In this document: in pieces, positions 28,756 to 46,295 of the stretch
Layout of the letters: each line of letters opens with the position of its first letter
Position numbering within the stretch: the first letter of the stretch is position 1
Source of the DNA: Actinomycetota bacterium
GTDB taxonomy: Bacteria; Actinomycetota; Nitriliruptoria; Nitriliruptorales; JAHWKO01
Assembly (NCBI GenBank): GCA_019347675.1
Contig: JAHWKW010000002.1
Location: forward strand, 1-64,000
Length of the DNA stretch: 64,000 nt
Direction of reading: 5' to 3'
Translations under genes and position numbers: made by a program
The notes under the pieces: generated by a model
The model's database searches: none
What the model was told of the DNA's origin: nothing
Seen by the model: the letters and a program-made list of their open reading frames with translations, nothing else

Positions 28756-30638
28756 GGGTGCCCGTGCCGCGGCGGCACGTCGCCGTCCTGCTCGCCATCG
28801 CCCTGGTCGGCCTGGTCCGCGGGCTGTTCTGGGTGACGGTCGTGGAGATCACCAGCCCGATCGACGAGGCGCAACACATCGATTACGTCGTCTCCCTGGC
28901 GACCAGGGGCCGGCCACCGATCGTGGGGACCGACACGCTGCACCCGGATCTGCTCCGGCTGCTGAAATCGGCCCCGACGTCGACGATCGGCCGGATCCCG
29001 GTTTCGGTCGAGGAGCCGGCCGGTTGGGCGGCGGTGGCACAGTCCTACGAGGGGGTCCAGCCCCCGCTGTACTACGCCGTCCTGACACCGGCGTACCTCG
29101 CGCTGCGTGACGCCGGGATCGCACCTGTCGTCTTCGCGCTCCGTCTCGCCTCGCTGCTGCTGGCGCTGACCGCCGTCCCGCTCATCTACGTTCTCGCCCG
29201 CGAGCTCTTCCCGGAGCGCCCCGCGGTGTGGCTCGGTGGCCCGCTGCTGCTGGTCTTCGTGCAGGGGTTCAACGCCAACCTCGCCACCGTGAACAACGAC
29301 GCGCTGATCGTCCCGCTCGGTGTCGCCACGCTCATCCCGGTCGCCCGTGCCATCCGCCGTGGCATCACCTGGCGGCAGGCGGTCGCGACCGGGACGCTGT
29401 TCGGTCTGGGGTTGCTGACCAAGGCCACGGCGGTGGGGCTGGCTGTGGTGGTGGCGCTCGGTGCGCTGCTGGTGGCGGGCCGTCAGCGTCCACCGGTGCG
29501 CACGCTGGTCGGCTGGCCCGCCGTCGTGGGGGGGATCGCCGCCGTCCTGATCGCCCCCTGGGTCGTGTGGAACCTGGTCGTCTACGGCGCGACCAGCGGC
29601 GCCGTGCAAGCCCACGCGATCACCGGCGCGTTGCAGCTCAGCGCGCCGGTGACCACCCTCGCGGGTCTCGCCGACCACGTCGAGGCCGCGTCGCTGGGCT
29701 TCTGGGACATGCAGCTCCTCGCCCCGGCGTGGAACGCCTACACGCTGCGGTGGACCGCGGTGTTCCTCGCCGCGGTGGCCGGCGGCCTCGTGGTCACGCT
29801 GATCCGCGGCCGGCAGCGGGCGGCTGCGCGGCTGGGATGGCTCGCGGTCGCCACGCCGGCGGCATTCCTCGGGATGCTCGCCGTCATCGTCGGCGCCTTC
29901 GGCGGAGTCGGGTTGATGGTGGGCCGACACCTGTACGGGGCGCTGGGTGCCGCGGTGCTGGCGGTGGCCGGCGGGATCGGACTGGCTCTGCCGGCGCGCT
30001 GGGCGGCGGTGACGCTGCTCGCGGTGGTCGCGTTCGTCACCGGGGCGGAGCCGCCCGGCGTGCACCGCTACCTCGACGCGACGTACGTCCGCGGTGTGGT
30101 CGCGCCCGATCTCGCCCCGGTGGTCGATCAGACCTGGAACGACGAGTGGATCCCCGGTGAACCGGTCCGTCTGTCGGCGCCCTGCCAGTCACCGGCTTTC
30201 ACGCTGACGTTCGAGGACCGCAACCCCACGGTCCTCACGGTGGCGGGCGGCGGGTCCGCGCAACGCGTCGAGGAGGTGCGGTACCCGATCGGTTTCACGA
30301 TCTCGCGCTACCGGTTGGACGCTGCGGTCACCGAGGCCGTCGTCGAGGTCCCGCCGTGGGCGCATCTGGGCTGGTCGCGGGGCGATCGCACGCCGCACCT
30401 GGAGATGGTTCACCGCGGCGGCGATCCGGTGGGCCAGATCCTGTGCCCCGTGGACGACCCCGGACCGGTGCGCTTCGAGCAGACCTTCGACCGCCACCAC
30501 CCCGACGCGATCGACTACGGCCCGGTACGCGCCTGGCCGTTGGTGTGGGTATGGGCGACGCGCGCGGCGGCTCTCGGGGCGCTGCTGGGTGCGCTGGTGC
30601 GGGCGGGGCGCCGCCGCCGGTCGGGATCGGCTACGTGA
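28752..30638 (+). CDS. DUF2142/GT-C-like polytopic membrane protein
   Basis: A 628-residue protein with about 11 helices. It has [18 protein letters not shown] after helix 1 and [17 protein letters not shown] before helix 2, the acidic-loop and QPPLYY motifs typical of DUF2142 and related GT-C glycosyltransferases. An extracytoplasmic domain of about 150 residues follows, with one last helix and an Arg-rich cytoplasmic tail. It probably transfers sugars from lipid carriers to an envelope polymer, working with its overlapping upstream neighbour. Its 3' end overlaps the 3' end of uvrA by 8 bases (convergent). Confidence 0.75.
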
Positions 30639-33498
30639 GCAGGTCGCGGAGGAACTTGCCTGTGTACGACGCGGGCTCGGCCGCGATGTCCTCGGGGGTT
30701 CCGGCGACGACCACGGTTCCGCCGCCGACGCCGCCCTCAGGCCCCAGGTCGATGACGTGATCCGCCGTCTTGATCACGTCGAGGTTGTGCTCGATCACGA
30801 TCACGGTGTTGCCCTTGTCGACCAGCCGGTGCAGGACGTCGAGCAGCCGCGCGACGTCGGCGAAGTGCAGCCCGGTGGTGGGCTCGTCGAGGATGTACAC
30901 GGTCTGGCCGGTTGCGCGTTTCTTCAGCTCCGAGGCCAGCTTGACGCGCTGGGCCTCACCGCCCGACAGAGTCGTGGCGGGCTGACCGAGGCGGAGGTAG
31001 CCCAGGCCCACATCGCTCAGCGTCTGCAGGTGCGCCGCGATCGCCGGGATCGGCTCGAAGAAGTGCAGCGCCGTCTCGACCGTCATGTCGAGCACCTCCG
31101 CGATGGTGCGGCCCTTGTAGTGCACCTCGAGGGTCTCGCGGTTGTAGCGACGGCCGCGGCACACCTCACACGGGACGTACACGTCGGGCAGGAAGTGCAT
31201 CTCGATCTTGATGGTTCCGTCACCGCGGCACGCCTCGCACCGTCCCCCTTTGACGTTGAACGAGAACCGGCCGGGCATGTAGCCGCGGAGCTTCGCCTCC
31301 GGGGTCGCCGCGAAGAGCCTGCGGATGTGGTCGAACACGCCGGTGTAGGTGGCCGGGTTCGAGCGTGGCGTGCGTCCGATCGGTGACTGGTCGACGACCA
31401 CGACCTTGTCCACGTGCTCCAGACCGGTCACGCGGCGGTGACGACCGGGAGCCTCCCGCGACGAGTAGACGTGTCTCATCAGCACCCGGGCGAGGATGTC
31501 ATTCACGAGCGTGGATTTCCCGGATCCGGACACGCCGGTCACGCAGGTGAAGGTCCCCAGCGGGAAAGACACGCCGATGTCGTGGAGGTTGTGTTCGCTG
31601 GCTCCGACGACCGTCACTGCCCGGTCGTGGTGCACCGGCCGACGCTGGGTCGGGGTCGCGATCGACAGCTGACCAGACAGGTACCGCCCCGTGATCGAGC
31701 TGTCTTGCCGCAGCAGCTCGGCCAGCGACCCGGAGTGAACGATCTCCCCGCCGTGTTCGCCGGCGCCGGGACCGATGTCGACGATGTGATCGGCAGCCTC
31801 GATGGTGGCCTCGTCGTGCTCGACGACGATCAGCGTGTTGCCCAGGTCGCGCAGGCGGAGCAGCGTCTCGATCAGGCGGGCGTTGTCGCGCTGGTGCAGC
31901 CCGATCGATGGTTCGTCCAGGACGTACAGGACACCGACCAGACCGGCGCCGATCTGGGTCGCCAGTCTGATCCGCTGCGCTTCTCCGCCCGACAGCGATC
32001 CGGCGGAGCGGTCGAGGGTGAGGTACTCCAGGCCGACGTCGAGGAGGAACCGCAGTCGCGACCGGATCTCCTTCAGGACCCGAGCGGCGATCAGCTGCTG
32101 GCGCTCGGACAGCTGAAGGTCAGCGACGAACTCGTCGGCTTCAGCGACCGATAGCGCGGCCAGCTCGGCGATCCCGATCCCGGAGACGGTCACGGCCAGC
32201 GCGAGCGGCTTCAGGCGCTGCCCGTGACACGCTGGACAGGCCACCTCACGCATGTACTGCTCGACCTGTCCGCGGACGTAGTCGGAGTCGGTCTCGGTGT
32301 GGCGGCGAAGCAGCGACGGGAGGACGCCCTCGAAACGAGCCTTGTACGAGCGTCGGCGCCCGTAGCGGTTCGTGTACTGCACGTGGACGCGGTGGTCGAG
32401 CCCGTGCAACACCGCGCGGCGGACACGCGCAGGGAGATCCTTCCATGGGCTGGTGGGGTCGGCGCCCTGATCGCGGATCACCGACCGCAGCAGTTGCTCG
32501 TAGTAGTTGCTCTGGTGGCCGCCGGCCCACGGCAGGATCACGCCATCAGCGATCGACAGGTGTGGGTCGCCGACCACCAGCTCGGGGTCGACGGTCAGCT
32601 GCGTCCCCAGCCCGCTGCACTCCTCGCATGCCCCGTAGGGCGAGTTGAACGAGAAGTTGCGCGGCGCGAGCTGATCGAACGAGAGGCCGCACACCGGACA
32701 GGCGAGGTGCTCGGAGAACGTCAGGATCTCCGGTTCGCCGCCGCCCTCGGAGGGAACGATCTCGATCATCGCGACCCCCTCCGCCAGGTTGAGGGCCGTC
32801 TCGATCGAGTCGGTCAGGCGCCGGCGCAGATCCCCCCTCTGCACCAGGCGATCGACCACCACCTCGATCTCGTGCTTGCGCTGCTTGTTGAGCTTCGGCG
32901 GGTCCTCGAGCGGGTGAACCTCGCCGTCCACCCGCACCCGGGCGTACCCCTGCCGTGACAGCTGCTGGAACAGGTTGGCGTATTCGCCCTTGCGGCCACG
33001 CACGACGGGGGCGAGCACCTGGAAACGTGTCCCCGGCGGGAGCTCATGGACCTGGTCGACGATCTGCTCGGCGGTCTGGCGCGAGATCTCCCGACCGCAG
33101 TTGGGGCAGTACGGTGTTCCGATCCTGGCGTACAGCAGCCGCAGGTAGTCGTAGATCTCGGTGATCGTCCCGACGGTGGACCGCGGGTTGCGGGAGGTCG
33201 ACTTCTGGTCGATCGAGATCGCCGGGGACAGCCCTTCGATGAAGTCGACGTCCGGCTTCTCCATCTGACCGAGGAACTGCCGGGCGTACGCAGACAGGGA
33301 CTCGACGTAGCGTCGCTGCCCCTCGGCGTAGATGGTGTCGAAGGCGAGGCTGGACTTGCCCGAGCCGGACAGCCCGGTGAACACGATCAGCGCATCACGG
33401 GGGAGCTCGAGGTTGACGTCCTTGAGGTTGTGTTCGCGGGCACCGCGGACGGTGATCACCGCGTGCGAGACGTGCTCGATCACCTGCTCGCTGGGCAC
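30631..33498 (-). CDS. uvrA: Excinuclease ABC subunit A
   Basis: The damage-recognition ATPase of nucleotide excision repair, 955 residues (usual 940-970). It has two ABC ATPase halves: the first Walker A is GLSGSGKSS (about residues 42-50), the second GVSGSGKST; both have LSGGEAQR signatures. Zinc modules are visible as CPNCG, CPVCG with CEECSG, and [16 protein letters not shown] with CEVCRG. The GTG start at 33498 has the standard UvrA N-terminus soon after ([15 protein letters not shown]). A LexA-type box lies 88 bases upstream. The divergent metallo-beta-lactamase neighbour matches the order near uvrA in mycobacteria. Confidence 0.98.
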
Positions 33499-33557
33499 GG
33501 TCGGACGTCTCCGGGGTTGGTCGGCAGGGTTCGCGGGATCGTTTGCGAGAGGTGCCG

Positions 33558-33563
33558 ATCGTA
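33558..33563 (-). promoter_or_regulatory. Possible uvrA -10 box
   Basis: The minus strand reads TACGAT here (TAnnnT class), about 60 bases before the uvrA start. The LexA-type box begins 22 bases upstream of it and so would cover the -35 region. Inferred from position only. Confidence 0.4.
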
Positions 33564-33585
33564 TCGCAGGGGACGGTACGCGAGG

Positions 33586-33599
33586 CGAACCGGTGTTCG
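33586..33599. promoter_or_regulatory. LexA-type SOS box between uvrA and MBL hydrolase
   Basis: CGAACCGGTGTTCG is a perfect inverted repeat of the form CGAAC-N4-GTTCG, the core of the LexA operator known from mycobacteria and bacilli. It lies between the divergent uvrA and metallo-beta-lactamase genes, close to the possible -10 boxes of both (TACGAT at 33558-33563 minus, TACAGT at 33611-33616 plus). LexA bound here could repress either or both. Confidence 0.75.
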
Positions 33600-33627
33600 G
33601 GTCCGGCCTCTACAGTGGCACGGGGAC

Positions 33628-34296
33628 ATGGAGGAGGCAGCGTTGGGTGACGCCTACTCAGGTCACGTCGACCCCGGCGGCGGGCCGGTCGAGCGCCGCG
33701 ACGGACGTCTGCTCGTGCGCAAGCTCTCCGTCGGAGACATGGACAACAACGTCTACGTGGTCGCGGACGCCTCCACCGGCGCCGCCATGATCGTGGACGC
33801 AGCAGCCGACGCGGAGCGGATCCGCCAGGCGGCGAGCGACCTCGAGCCCGTCGCCGTGCTGCAAACCCACGGACACTGGGACCACGTCCGGGCGTGGCCC
33901 GACCTGGCGACGGATCCCGGGCTCGACGTCTGGGGACACGCCGACGACCGCGAGCTGTTCCCGCGTGAACCCGACCGGCTGCTCGACGACGGCGACCAGC
34001 TGCAACTCGGAGGCATGCGCGTGGAGGTGATCCACACCCCGGGTCACACTCCCGGGAGCATCAACTTCCTGGTCGGCGCCGACCAGCGACCGCACCTCTT
34101 CACGGGCGACTCGCTGTTCCCCGGCGGCGTGGGGCGCACCACACCGGAGACGTTCCCTCAGCTGTTCGACAACGTCAAGAAGAAGCTGTTCGCGCGTCTC
34201 CCGGACGAGACGTGGGTGTATCCCGGACACGGCGACGACACCACGCTCGGCCGTGAGCGGCCGCATCTCGACGAGTGGCGCGCGCGCGGCTGGTGA
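33628..34296 (+). CDS. Metallo-beta-lactamase-fold hydrolase (glyoxalase II-like)
   Basis: A 222-residue MBL-fold protein with the full metal motif THGHWDH (His81, His83, Asp85, His86 from the ATG), plus [19 protein letters not shown] and a final PGHGDDT. This pattern is closest to hydroxyacylglutathione hydrolase-like proteins acting on thioesters or related small metabolites. The true start may be the in-frame TTG at 33643, which has GGAGG 5 bases upstream; the ATG at 33628 is used here. The gene diverges from uvrA and shares the SOS-box region. Substrate unknown. Confidence 0.85.
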
Positions 34297-37743: not shown

Positions 37744-37893
37744 TCACCTCGGATGGGGTTTCACTCTCCCGCTCGCTCCTGCCTCACCGTATCGACGCCC
37801 CCGGCGCGCCCGTCGACGAGTGGCCGCTCCAAACGTCGCGGCGATCAGCGGCGGTGACCCTTGGGTTGCTCCCGGTTGTCGCATACTGGCGGT

Positions 37894-37899
37894 TAGCCT
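37894..37899 (+). promoter_or_regulatory. Possible -10 box for leaderless mRNA
   Basis: TAGCCT lies 7 bases before the ATG at 37907, the distance expected for a transcript starting at the start codon. No ribosome-binding site precedes that ATG, which fits. No convincing -35. Confidence 0.35.
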
Positions 37900-37906
37900 C
37901 AGCGCC

Positions 37907-38533
37907 ATGGCGATGTCTGCCGAGGACGTGCGAACGGCCGCCCGGCTGTGCACGGCCTCCCTGGCGCCGGGAGCCGATCGGGACTGGGGAGGTCGCGCCG
38001 GTGGCCTCGACTGGTCTTGCCGGCGCACGCTCGACCACCTCCCTGATGCGCTGTTGCTCTACGCCGCTCACCTCGCCAGCCGGGCGACCGACCGGCTCGC
38101 GTTCGTGCGCGACGGTGATCCCGAGGCCTCGGTGCCTGACCTGCTGGATGCGGTGCAGTCGGCCGCGGCGATCCTCGCTGCCGTGGTCGAGGCCGCGCCG
38201 GTTGGCACGCGCGCCTACCATCCCGCCGGCATGGCCGATGCGGAAGGGTTCGCGGCGATGGGGTGTGACGAGATCCTCGTGCACACCGGTGACATCGCCG
38301 AGGGCCTCGGCCTGGAGTACGCACCACCGGGGGATCTGTGCGCCCGTGTCGTGGCACGGCTGTTTCCCTGGGCACCGGCTGGCGGCGAGCCGTGGGAGGT
38401 CCTGCGGTGGGCCAACGGCCGGACGGCGCTGCCCGGGGCAGGACGGCTTCGTCCCGACTGGTGGTGGCATTGCGCCCCTCTTGACGAGTGGGACGGGCGA
38501 ACGAAGTCCCGTACCGCCCCCCCGGCCTGGTGA
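37907..38533 (+). CDS. DinB/mycothiol-dependent maleylpyruvate isomerase-like protein
   Basis: About 208 residues of the DinB/MDMPI four-helix family. WSCRRTLDHLPDALLLYAAHL and CDEILVHTGDIAEGLG carry the spaced histidines and acids that bind metal in this fold. Many actinobacterial members use mycothiol; the substrate here is unknown. The ATG at 37907 (or 37913) was chosen because a TAnnnT box sits just upstream and homology begins there. It is convergent with uvrB. Confidence 0.75.
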   Translation: MAMSAEDVRTAARLCTASLAPGADRDWGGRAGGLDWSCRRTLDHLPDALLLYAAHLASRATDRLAFVRDGDPEASVPDLLDAVQSAAAILAAVVEAAPVGTRAYHPAGMADAEGFAAMGCDEILVHTGDIAEGLGLEYAPPGDLCARVVARLFPWAPAGGEPWEVLRWANGRTALPGAGRLRPDWWWHCAPLDEWDGRTKSRTAPPAW

Positions 38534-38568: not shown

Positions 38569-40596
38569 TCACACGTTGGCGACGTCCATCGCCTTCAGCT
38601 CCCGCTTGAGCTCGGCAAGCTCGTCCCGCAGCCGCGCGGCGTACTCGAACCGCAGCTCCCCGGCGGCCTCGTGCATCTCGTCGGTGAGCCGCTGGATCAA
38701 GGCGCGTAGTTCGTCGCGGGGCAGCTCGGTGGCGTCGGGCTCGGTGAGGCCGCCGCGCCGCGGCCGGTCCACCGCCGTGTAGGCGCGCCCCGCCTCGGCC
38801 GCCCGCGCGGCCTGGATGATGTCGCCCACACGTTTGCGGATCGTCTGCGGGTCGATCCCATGCTGGCGGTTGTACGCCAGCTGCTTGTCGCGCCGGCGGT
38901 CGGTCTCCTCGAGCGCGGCACGCATCGCGTCGGTGACGGCGTCGGCGTACATGATGACCTGGCCGTGGACGTTGCGGGCGGCCCTCCCGATGGTCTGGAT
39001 CAACGACGTCCCCGACCGCAGGAACCCCTCCTTGTCGGCGTCCAGGATCGCCACCAGCGAGACCTCGGGGAGGTCGAGGCCCTCACGCAGGAGGTTGATC
39101 CCGACGAGCACGTCGAACTCGCCCATGCGCAGGTCGCGGAGGATCTCGATGCGCTGCACCGTGTCGATGTCGGAGTGCAGGTACCGCACGCGGATCCCGT
39201 TGCCGAGCAGGTAGTCGGTCAGGTCCTCGGCCATCTTCTTGGTCAGCGTGGTGACCAGCACGCGCTCGTCCTGCTCGACACGTGCCGAGATCTCGTGCAT
39301 CAGGTCGTCGATCTGCCCTCGGCTGTCGCGGACGACCACCTCGGGGTCGACCAGCCCGGTCGGGCGGATCACCTGCTCGACGAAGGTCGTGCACTCGCGC
39401 CGTTCGTACGAGCCGGGCGTGGCTGAGATGAACAGCCGCTGACCGATCCGGTCCAGGAACTCATCGAACCGCAGCGGCCGGTTGTCCAGCGCCGACGGCA
39501 GCCGGAAGCCGTGCTCGACCAGCACCTCCTTCCGGGAACGGTCGCCCTCGTACATCCCGCCGATCTGCGGGATCGTGACGTGCGACTCGTCGGTCATCAG
39601 GACGAAGTCCTCGGGGAAGTAGTCCAGCAGGGTGTAGGGCGGCGTCCCCGGCGCACGACCGTCGAAGTGCCGCGAGTAGTTCTCGATCCCCGAGCAGAAG
39701 CCGACCTCGCGGATCATCTCCAGGTCGTAGTTGGTCCGCATCCGCAGGCGCTGCGCCTCCAGCAGCTTGTTGTGGTGGCGCAGCTCAGCCAGTCGCTGGT
39801 CGAGCTCGGCCTCGATCGTGGCGATGGCGCGCTCCACGTTCGCCCGTGACGCCACGTAGTGCGACGCCGGGAAGACCGCGAACTCCTGCAGTTCCCCGGT
39901 CACCTCCCCCGTCAAGGTGTTCAGCCGGGTGATGCGGTCGACCTCGTCGCCGAAGAACTCGAAGCGGACGGCGAGCTCGTCATCGGTGGGGAACACCTCC
40001 ACGGTGTCGCCCCGGACCCGGAAGCTCCCGCGGATCAGGTTCAGATCGTTGCGGTGGTACTGCAGGTCGACCAGCTTGCGCAGCGCGGCGTCGAGCCCGT
40101 AGTCGTCCCCACGGCGGAGCCACAGCACGTGGTCGCGGTACTCGGCAGGAGATCCCAGACCGTAGATGCACGAGACCGACGCCACCACGACGACGTCCCG
40201 GCGCGACAGCAGAGACATCGTCGTGCGGTGACGCAAGCGCTCGATCTCGTCGTTGATCGACGAGTCCTTCTCGATGTAGGTGTCGGTCTGCGGGATGTAC
40301 GCCTCGGGCTGGTAGTAGTCGTAGTAGGACACGAAGTACTCGACGGCGTTGTGCGGGAAGACCTCGCGGAACTCGTTGGCGAGCTGCGCCGCGAGGGTCT
40401 TGTTCGGGGCGATCACCAGCGTGGGGCGCTGCACACGCTCGATGACGTTGGCTGCCGCGAACGTCTTCCCCGTCCCGGTGGCGCCGAGGAGGGTCACCGC
40501 CTTCTCCCCCGCCAGGAGCGCCTCGGCGATGGCCTCGATCGCCGCCGGCTGATCGCCGGACGGCCTGAGATCGCTCACCACCTGGAAGTCGGGCAC
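38569..40596 (-). CDS. uvrB: Excinuclease ABC subunit B
   Basis: The damage-verifying helicase-like core of nucleotide excision repair, about 675 residues. Walker A is GATGTGKTF near residue 39; the DNA-separating hairpin region reads [14 protein letters not shown]. Helicase motifs follow ([37 protein letters not shown]). The C-terminal UVR domain, which contacts UvrC, is [24 protein letters not shown] 40596 has GGAGGG 7 bases upstream; the frame is open upstream without homology. It is the last gene of the rpsA-coaE-HAD-M1 cluster, 83 bases after the M1 gene. No LexA box is seen before it. Confidence 0.97.
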
Positions 40597-40679
40597 GTAG
40601 ACGCCCTCCGGAGCTCTGTGCGAGCGCGACAGCGCCCGCCCCGAGCGTAACGTCACCCCACCCAGCCGCCTTCCCGGCG

Positions 40680-42320
40680 TCAACCCACAGGGGCCGGGTC
40701 GAACCAGTACCGCTGCAGCGCATCGGCGACAGCCGGGTCGCGGTCACGCGCCTGCGCCAGCAGCTCACGGTCGGTGATGAAGCCCAGCCCCGCCCGGTCG
40801 ACGATGTCGCCGAGGAAGCCCACCAGCTGCTCGCGGCCGGCGGCCTCCTCGGCGGCCAGCCATCCCAGCGGCGCACGGGCGTAGACCAGCGCCCCGTACG
40901 CCTCGACGCTGTCGAACTCGCCGAGCGGCTGTGCGGGCGGCTCGTCCTGCACTCCGGCGTCCCGGGCGAGCTCGTACCGGCGGACGAACACCCTGTCGGC
41001 CAGCTGGGCGGCGACGTCCTGCCCGTAGGTGTCGGCGTAGAACAGGTAGGCGCAGTACTGGGCGAGGGACTCGTCGACCACCGGGGCGGACAGCGACCCG
41101 TTGCCCACCAGTGCGTGCCACCACTGGTGGGCGACCTCGTGCGCCACGATGTACGCACCGAAACGGACGTCCATCCGGTCGTACAGGTCCTCGCCGATCA
41201 CCACCAGGCCGGGGAACTCCATCCCGGCAGCGCCGGCCGACAACGGCGCGGCCACCACGTCCACCTCGCGCCACGCCAGCGGGCCGAACCGCTCCAGGAA
41301 GCTGCGCACCGACGCGGCCGAGATGTCCAGCGCCTCGTCCAGGCCGGCCATCCCGGCAGGTCCCGACGCGTGGACCCGCACGGGTCCCACCGTGGCACTC
41401 CGGCTCTCGAGCCGGTCGTAGGCGACGACGGCCACGTCGCGGAGCGCGACACCTCTCGCCCACACGCACGGCTCGTCGGGGATGGTCCGCACCGCCGCGG
41501 GGCAGTCCTGCTCCTCGGCCCCGGTGAGGATCTCCGCCCCACCGGTGTGGATCCGCAGGGACCACACCGCCACCGGGAAGGCACCCACGTCGCCGATCGG
41601 GATCATGGGACCGTCGTCGCTAGGGACGGTGAGCAGCGGGAGCCAGTGGCCCAGGACCGTGACCTCAGGGCTCCACGCCAGCAACCCGAACCCGACCGGT
41701 CCGCCGTCGTCTCGGATGTCGGCACGGTCGGCGAGCGCGTAGCTCAGCTGGGCACGGACCACCGTCGCGTCACCCTCCCTCAGCGGCGGGTCGAGTCTCA
41801 CGAACAGCCGGGCGCCGGCCGGGTCGACGTCGCTGGCGACGTCCCTCCCGTCGCGCCTGGTGGCGATGTCCAACGATGTCCCCGCGTCGGCGAGGGTGTC
41901 GGACGCGGGCAGGAGCCGCAGCACCAGTCGGTCGAGGTCACGGTCGGCCCGGTAGGCGACCACGACGTCCGCCTGGAGGCGTCGACGGCCTGGATCGAGG
42001 CGAAGGCTGGCCACGTAGACCGGGCGTTCCTCCGCCGGCCATGCCGGATGTCCCAGGTCGGCCCACGGTCCGCTCGCCGCCCGTAGGCCGGCGGCCAGGA
42101 GCGCGTCGCCACCGAGCGCCTCCGCATCAGCCGGCTCGTGCGGCAGGTCAGGGGCGGACCTGGGCGACCCCGTGGGGGTCGGCGCCACGTCAGCCTCGGT
42201 CGCCGCTTCGTCCCGGGGAGCCTCTGGTGCTCGGGTGCGCGAGATCGCGATGGCGGAACCGACCAGCAGGATCGCTGCCGCGAGCGCCGCCAGCGCCCGG
42301 ATCGCCCACGGTGGCGTCAC
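40680..42320 (-). CDS. Membrane-anchored M1-like zinc metallopeptidase
   Basis: A 546-residue gluzincin. One N-terminal helix (residues 5-27) anchors it to the membrane, followed by a Pro/Ala/Glu linker. The zinc site is HEVAHQWWH with His394, His398 and Glu417 (18 residues between, as in M1). GMEFPG near 367 corresponds to the GAMEN exopeptidase motif of M1 aminopeptidases. The N-terminal beta domain is present. It probably trims peptides outside the membrane. GTG start overlaps the HAD gene stop. Confidence 0.85.
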
Positions 42321-46206: not shown

Positions 46207-46220
46207 CGAACATCAGTTCG
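46207..46220. promoter_or_regulatory. LexA-type SOS box upstream of the 13E12 HNH gene
   Basis: CGAACATCAGTTCG is a perfect CGAAC-N4-GTTCG inverted repeat, about 84 bases before the chosen start of the HNH gene. In M. tuberculosis several 13E12-repeat genes are known to be controlled by LexA, so the site and the gene type support each other. A CATGAT hexamer at 46200-46205 just upstream could be the -10 that LexA would cover. Confidence 0.75.
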
Positions 46221-46295
46221 GACCTGGGATTCGGACCTGCATGTCGGACCTGCATGTCGGACCTGGATGTCGGACCTGCATTTCGGACCTGGATG
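46218..46295. repeat. 13-bp tandem repeat array, six copies
   Basis: Six head-to-tail units of consensus TCGGACCTGSATG, with copies 1 and 5 slightly diverged. The array begins within the right arm of the LexA box and ends 8 bases before the chosen ATG of the HNH gene. The 13-base period is not a multiple of three, so it is not a simple coding repeat, although the HNH frame is open through it from an ATG at 46241. Confidence 0.9.

Follow-up and report, generated by a model that had tools for sequence, protein, structure and literature searches.

The perfect LexA-type box located between the divergently transcribed uvrA gene and a gene for a metallo-β-lactamase (MBL)-fold hydrolase in the window (the whole stretch of DNA that was analysed, 64,000 nucleotides from an actinobacterium of the class Nitriliruptoria) is most probably the LexA operator of uvrA, with the MBL gene being a long-standing neighbour and not a conserved SOS gene. 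The same motif is found upstream of lexA and of a recA-like gene in this genome, is enriched next to uvrA in related genomes and keeps its distance to the −10 element on the uvrA side. LexA bound at the box would sit on the −35 element of uvrA and repress the gene. RecA-stimulated self-cleavage of LexA after DNA damage is the established SOS pathway, and it would free the uvrA promoter. In this genome, some passive co-repression of the MBL gene is probable, since the gene directly follows the box, which covers its presumed −35 element. The first-pass annotation had expected SOS control of uvrA and had proposed that the MBL gene might respond to DNA damage as well; its interpretation is right for uvrA, while for the MBL gene it is unproven and the proximity of the box is probably incidental.

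Layout of the uvrA–MBL Intergenic Region

The features of the region are listed in Table 1. In a profile search, the uvrA product also matched TIGR00630 (1480 bits, cut-off 729.8). A uvrA −35 element, if positioned 17–20 nt from TACGAT, would overlap or abut the box, and an MBL −35 element at a spacing of 17 nt from TACAGT falls within the box. There is no gene between the box and the MBL gene in this genome. As a counter-point to ownership by uvrA, the edge of the box is closer to the start codon of the MBL gene (43 nt) than to that of uvrA (87 nt).

Table 1. Features of the region between uvrA and the MBL-fold hydrolase gene (positions in the window).
Feature	Position	Strand	Description
LexA box CGAACCGGTGTTCG	33586-33599	.	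palindromic operator (predicted), between uvrA and the MBL-fold hydrolase gene
uvrA	30631-33498	-	955 aa, GTG start; NF001503 1570 bits (cut-off 1147)
MBL-fold hydrolase gene (YcbL / glyoxalase-II-like)	33643-34296	+	217 aa, TTG start; PF00753
uvrA -10-like TACGAT	33558-33563	-	22 nt from box; backed by conservation in relatives
possible MBL -10 TACAGT	33611-33616	+	11 nt from box; position not conserved in relatives
Shine-Dalgarno GGAGGAGG of MBL gene	33630-33637	+	read from sequence

A scan of positions 33480–33660 with a stricter σ70 consensus retrieved no promoter, so TACAGT, the candidate −10 element of the MBL gene, amounts to no more than a short match to the consensus. Of the two possible −10 boxes that the first-pass annotation had placed next to the operator, the one of uvrA is backed by conservation in relatives. 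The string GAGGAGGCAGCG ahead of the MBL start is also present in L170, a related locus in which the two genes adjoin directly with a perfect box between them. There, TACCGT is located 26 nt from the box and ca. 28 nt before the MBL start; the corresponding distance of TACAGT to the MBL start in this genome is 32 nt. The comparison hints that the candidate MBL −10 element may keep its distance to the gene and not to the box, and the hint is a weak one because it comes from two loci and a short motif. Likewise, there is a weak indication, limited to this genome, that the box also lies over the presumed MBL −35 element.

Identity of the Motif

Every fixed position of CGAAC-N4-GTTCG is matched by CGAACCGGTGTTCG. 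With one flanking base on each side the sequence reads GCGAACCGGTGTTCGG, i.e., the outermost T and A of the mycobacterial-type LexA consensus TCGAAC-N4-GTTCGA are missing. Since this 16-mer has no sites in the whole genome, the 14-mer was used for searches. Taken within the window alone, the short core GAACN4GTTC speaks only weakly for a LexA box: it was found twice where 0.57 sites are expected, and 9 of 100 shuffled sequences also reached two. The genome-wide excess of CGAACN4GTTCG, with 30 sites against 2 for a reversed-pattern control, is strong evidence. Three of the 30 sites (C23:34753, 34827 and 34851) are just upstream of lexA, which encodes the sole LexA match of the genome (C23:34064-34684, minus strand; TIGR00498, 224.6 bits, cut-off 110.95). 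A recA-like gene, named by reading the sequence, has a box 282 nt ahead of it, and another box precedes a gene with a PHP domain (identified with Pfam) that resembles dnaE2 as judged by reading the sequence. The motif also exceeded the control in 59 of 60 related genomes of the class, the exception being G036 (4 against 6). The genome-wide excess, the lexA and recA boxes and the excess in relatives identify the motif as this lineage's LexA box, in line with the LexA-type box of the first-pass annotation.

A further counter-point to ownership by uvrA is that other likely box-controlled genes of the genome mostly have the box 5–57 nt from their starts. In ten likely SOS genes, including lexA and the dnaE2 cassette, the −10 element starts 8–13 nt before the box, which stands 13–57 nt from the start; this layout is unlike that of uvrA or the MBL gene.

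Phasing of the Box to uvrA in Related Genomes

The MBL protein was searched in 60 related genomes, 52 of which gave loci for the synteny table; G016, G022, G034, G036, G049, G054, G056 and G057 were left out as partial or weak matches. In 44 of the 52 loci uvrA is upstream of the MBL gene on the opposite strand. The fetched stretch of the other eight is without uvrA; in five of them, the sequence ahead of the MBL gene is shorter than 1.5 kb. Several of the related genomes consist of the same contigs as loci of a second set of 80 named loci (see below), and the two sets were therefore counted apart. The uvrA starts of relatives were extrapolated from tblastn matches and may be off by some codons; at L146, the match used has only 44% identity to UvrA.

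The 14.2 kb of sequence adjoining uvrA in the 44 loci contains 15 perfect and 7 one-mismatch boxes, while the remaining 232.8 kb of the same loci contains no perfect and 20 one-mismatch boxes. When the window is included, there are 23 box-bearing class loci, which are related and do not represent 23 independent events. On the uvrA side, 20 of the 23 have a −10 element of the form TANNNT at a distance of 16–23 nt from the box; on the rightward side, one has it. When the uvrA-side sequence was shuffled 2000 times, a phased −10 element appeared in 0.59 loci on average and in five at most. Since the phase is kept on the uvrA side only, the box is phased to uvrA and overlaps or abuts its likely −35 element, which, at the level of sequence comparison across related loci, is strong support for the box serving uvrA. 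The placement expected to block the uvrA promoter is conserved, and a corresponding placement in front of the rightward gene is not.

The box also stays with uvrA when the MBL gene is elsewhere. In G010, uvrA, the box and a dehydrogenase gene are found together, the MBL gene is ca. 10 kb away from uvrA, and no box is present within 400 nt of it. At L186/L212 the box is with uvrA, and the MBL gene has none in the adjoining 400 nt.

Outside Nitriliruptoria (L030-L095), 43 of 51 loci lack a box at uvrA even when one mismatch is allowed; the other eight have one near uvrA (5 perfect, 3 one-mismatch), and the −10 phase is kept in none of these eight. Together with 12 of 17 directly adjacent class loci where uvrA is boxless (see below), this indicates that control of uvrA by LexA is not a universal trait.

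The Rightward Partner of uvrA Changes

As the first-pass annotation had stated, uvrA and the MBL gene are often divergent neighbours in Actinobacteria: among the 80 named loci, uvrA is divergently upstream of the MBL gene in 62 and absent within at least 4 kb in 10, while in 8 the contig ends before uvrA would be reached. In 27 of the 51 loci outside Nitriliruptoria, a maleylpyruvate-isomerase-like gene stands in between. Since adjacency of uvrA and the MBL gene is commoner than the box, the neighbourhood is wider than the box.

The partner on the right-hand side of uvrA may be the MBL gene, a VanH-like D-lactate dehydrogenase gene or a DUF222 gene. Counting the class loci with the window included, the MBL gene directly adjoins uvrA in 17, with a box (at most one mismatch) in 5; a D-2-hydroxyacid dehydrogenase gene separates the two in 19, with a box in 13; and another gene separates them in 9, with a box in 5. 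In the five directly adjacent loci with a box, it is located 44–142 nt from the MBL start. The 12 directly adjacent loci that lack a box come from genomes each of which has boxes in excess of the control elsewhere. We also inspected 20 MBL loci (two of them from the same contig) with at least 400 nt of upstream sequence and no uvrA in the fetched stretch; no perfect box was found within 400 nt of the MBL start, and one of the loci, L078, has a one-mismatch box 3 nt from the start. The MBL gene thus does not keep a box when away from uvrA, as a member of the SOS regulon would be expected to do. A conserved role of the MBL gene in the damage response is not supported by these data: the rightward phase is seen in 1 of 23 loci, the partner changes, and 12 of 17 adjacent loci are boxless.

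The MBL Protein and the Dehydrogenase of Relatives

The MBL protein matched PF00753 with 74.8 bits (cut-off 22.7) and is an MBL-fold metallohydrolase. Unlike GloB equivalogs, it scores below the curated cut-off of TIGR03413 (107.8 bits against 200.8). The closest solved chain, 2xf4 (E 4.1e-28), is labelled hydroxyacylglutathione hydrolase, and we take it to be YcbL. The HxHxDH motif and the later H, D and H ligands of this YcbL or type II glyoxalase II-like protein align with the MBL protein. All seven residues concerned (H76, H78, D80, H81, H135, D156 and H196), presumably the ligands of a binuclear metal centre as in the rest of the family, are invariant in 28 sequences. The nearest named relatives, with 56–63% identity, come from metagenome-assembled genomes of Nitriliruptoraceae. 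Judging from these similarities, thioester hydrolysis is the likeliest activity. No report linking Rv1637c with uvrA was found in the open-access papers searched. The MshC profile reached 267.7 bits in this genome against a cut-off of 485.1; it matched all 14 control genomes, one of them above the cut-off. The MshC family is related to cysteinyl-tRNA synthetase, so this match says nothing about mycothiol as the thiol used.

In many relatives belonging to the same order, a VanH/LdhA-like D-lactate dehydrogenase gene divergently adjoins uvrA and precedes the MBL gene (L166-L169, L171-L173, L176, L180-L184 and L212). Its product resembles VanH/LdhA and scored 244.5 bits with NF000492, below the cut-off of 540. 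In most loci that have the dehydrogenase gene, the MBL gene is located closely downstream of it, and the two look like an operon. A dehydrogenase ortholog was sought in our genome (assembly 96.7% complete) and not found, as the search gave only a partial match with 36% identity.

As far as gene neighbours go, the link to the dehydrogenase in relatives suggests a methylglyoxal route. It could be imagined that the Nitriliruptoria uvrA divergon is a LexA-controlled unit for repair and detoxification. UvrA would remove adducts of reactive carbonyls such as methylglyoxal, and the aldehyde itself would be converted to D-lactate and pyruvate by the products of the rightward genes, namely the glyoxalase II-like thioester hydrolase and the D-lactate dehydrogenase present in most relatives. 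In the present genome, loss of the dehydrogenase from the locus would have left the hydrolase directly under LexA. We consider this scenario, drawn from gene neighbours, very unlikely.

Alternative Explanations

Alternatively, the operator might have been selected to control both divergent genes, with joint repression of uvrA and the MBL gene by LexA and a real role of the hydrolase after DNA damage. The box does cover the presumed MBL −35 element, it is present 44–142 nt from the MBL start in five of the 17 directly adjacent class loci and, in many relatives, it is followed by the apparent dehydrogenase–MBL operon, so that a promoter at the box could read the MBL gene there as well. We nevertheless regard control of both genes as rather unlikely, since the box is in phase with a rightward −10 element in a single locus out of 23, most of the directly adjacent loci (12 of 17) have no box, and no perfect box was found within 400 nt of the MBL start in the 20 loci lacking uvrA, the only match being the one-mismatch box of L078.

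The box might also have been left behind by, or still serve, a gene of the DUF222-HNH (13E12) type that formerly separated uvrA from the MBL gene. Such an arrangement is seen in L161, which belongs to the nearest genus by MBL identity and has a DUF222 gene (39.3 bits, cut-off 24.4) between the box and the MBL gene; a similar protein is encoded upstream of the MBL gene in L160, where the contig ends before uvrA, and several DUF222 genes of our own genome have a LexA box. However, the uvrA-side −10 element of L161 is located at the family-wide distance, 21 nt from the box, relatives without DUF222 have the same box, and, among the DUF222 genes of our genome confirmed with Pfam, three out of four have a different layout, with the −10 element starting 8–12 nt before the box. 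The shared uvrA phase disfavours this origin, to which we give hardly any weight. Least probable of all is a chance palindrome without function: the short core is indeed not rare in the window, but the 30 sites against 2 in the genome, the lexA and recA boxes, the enrichment beside uvrA and the phasing to the uvrA −10 element all speak against it. A LexA operator belonging to uvrA agrees best with the data, and with it a little-studied class of actinobacteria joins those in which uvrA is under LexA control. The side on which the distance between box and −10 element is kept may serve as a cheap test of which divergent gene owns a shared operator. It also follows, as a caution, that a box between a repair gene and its neighbour does not make the neighbour a damage gene.

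Comparison with Known Systems

In E. coli, divergent uvrA and ssb share one LexA box, which overlaps the uvrA −35 element and lies 170 nt away from ssb; the effect of losing LexA is therefore more direct on uvrA (PMC9505508). The arrangement described here, for which E. coli provides the precedent, is similar in having a single box between uvrA and a divergent gene, at the uvrA −35 element; it differs in the partner, an MBL gene instead of ssb, and in the motif, that of E. coli being gammaproteobacterial. In Streptomyces venezuelae, uvrA has a LexA peak in ChIP-seq and an operator that LexA binds in vitro, while its induction was just under the authors' cut-off (PMC9380542). The GAAC-type box at uvrA is as in that regulon, and the main text of the S. 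venezuelae paper mentions no β-lactamase or hydrolase (PMC9380542). Control of uvrA by LexA is not general in the phylum, since UvrA of M. tuberculosis is described as overproduced without RecA (PMC8151990). A study of C. glutamicum SigH describes uvrA as raised in an rshA mutant, and the term "beta-lactamase" does not occur in the available text of that paper (PMC3489674).

DUF222 Genes and Other Observations

A second perfect LexA box of the window (46207-46220) is located 20 nt before an ORF starting at 46241 on the plus strand, the product of which matched PF02720 (DUF222) with 120 bits. Genes for DUF222 or DUF222-HNH (13E12-like) proteins of the genome have a LexA box 5–57 nt before their starts. 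Four of the box-bearing genes (L003, L005, L096 and L105) were confirmed with Pfam; L009, L010, L013, L099, L100 and L103 were assigned by resemblance, without a Pfam match, and several of them run off the fetched stretch. Several box-bearing DUF222 genes are found at contig ends, as if repeated. No report tying DUF222 to LexA or SOS was found in the open-access papers searched; 13E12 HNH genes are discussed in a section on the RecA-LexA SOS box in the available text of PMC4181829.

Two other box-bearing genes were noted. A gene for protein-L-isoaspartate methyltransferase (L012:1534-2166, plus strand; PF01135) has a perfect box 19 nt ahead, and a small protein (L102:1608-2084, plus strand), which is LysM-like by eye and gave no Pfam match, is encoded divergently from lexA, with boxes common to both genes. 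To the right of the MBL gene, the window contains a gene for a maleylpyruvate-isomerase-like protein (37820-38533, plus strand; TIGR03083, 33.3 bits against a cut-off of 50), which is adjoined by a gene reading as uvrB by eye (38569-40683, minus strand). A related maleylpyruvate-isomerase-like protein adjoins uvrA in other Actinobacteria.
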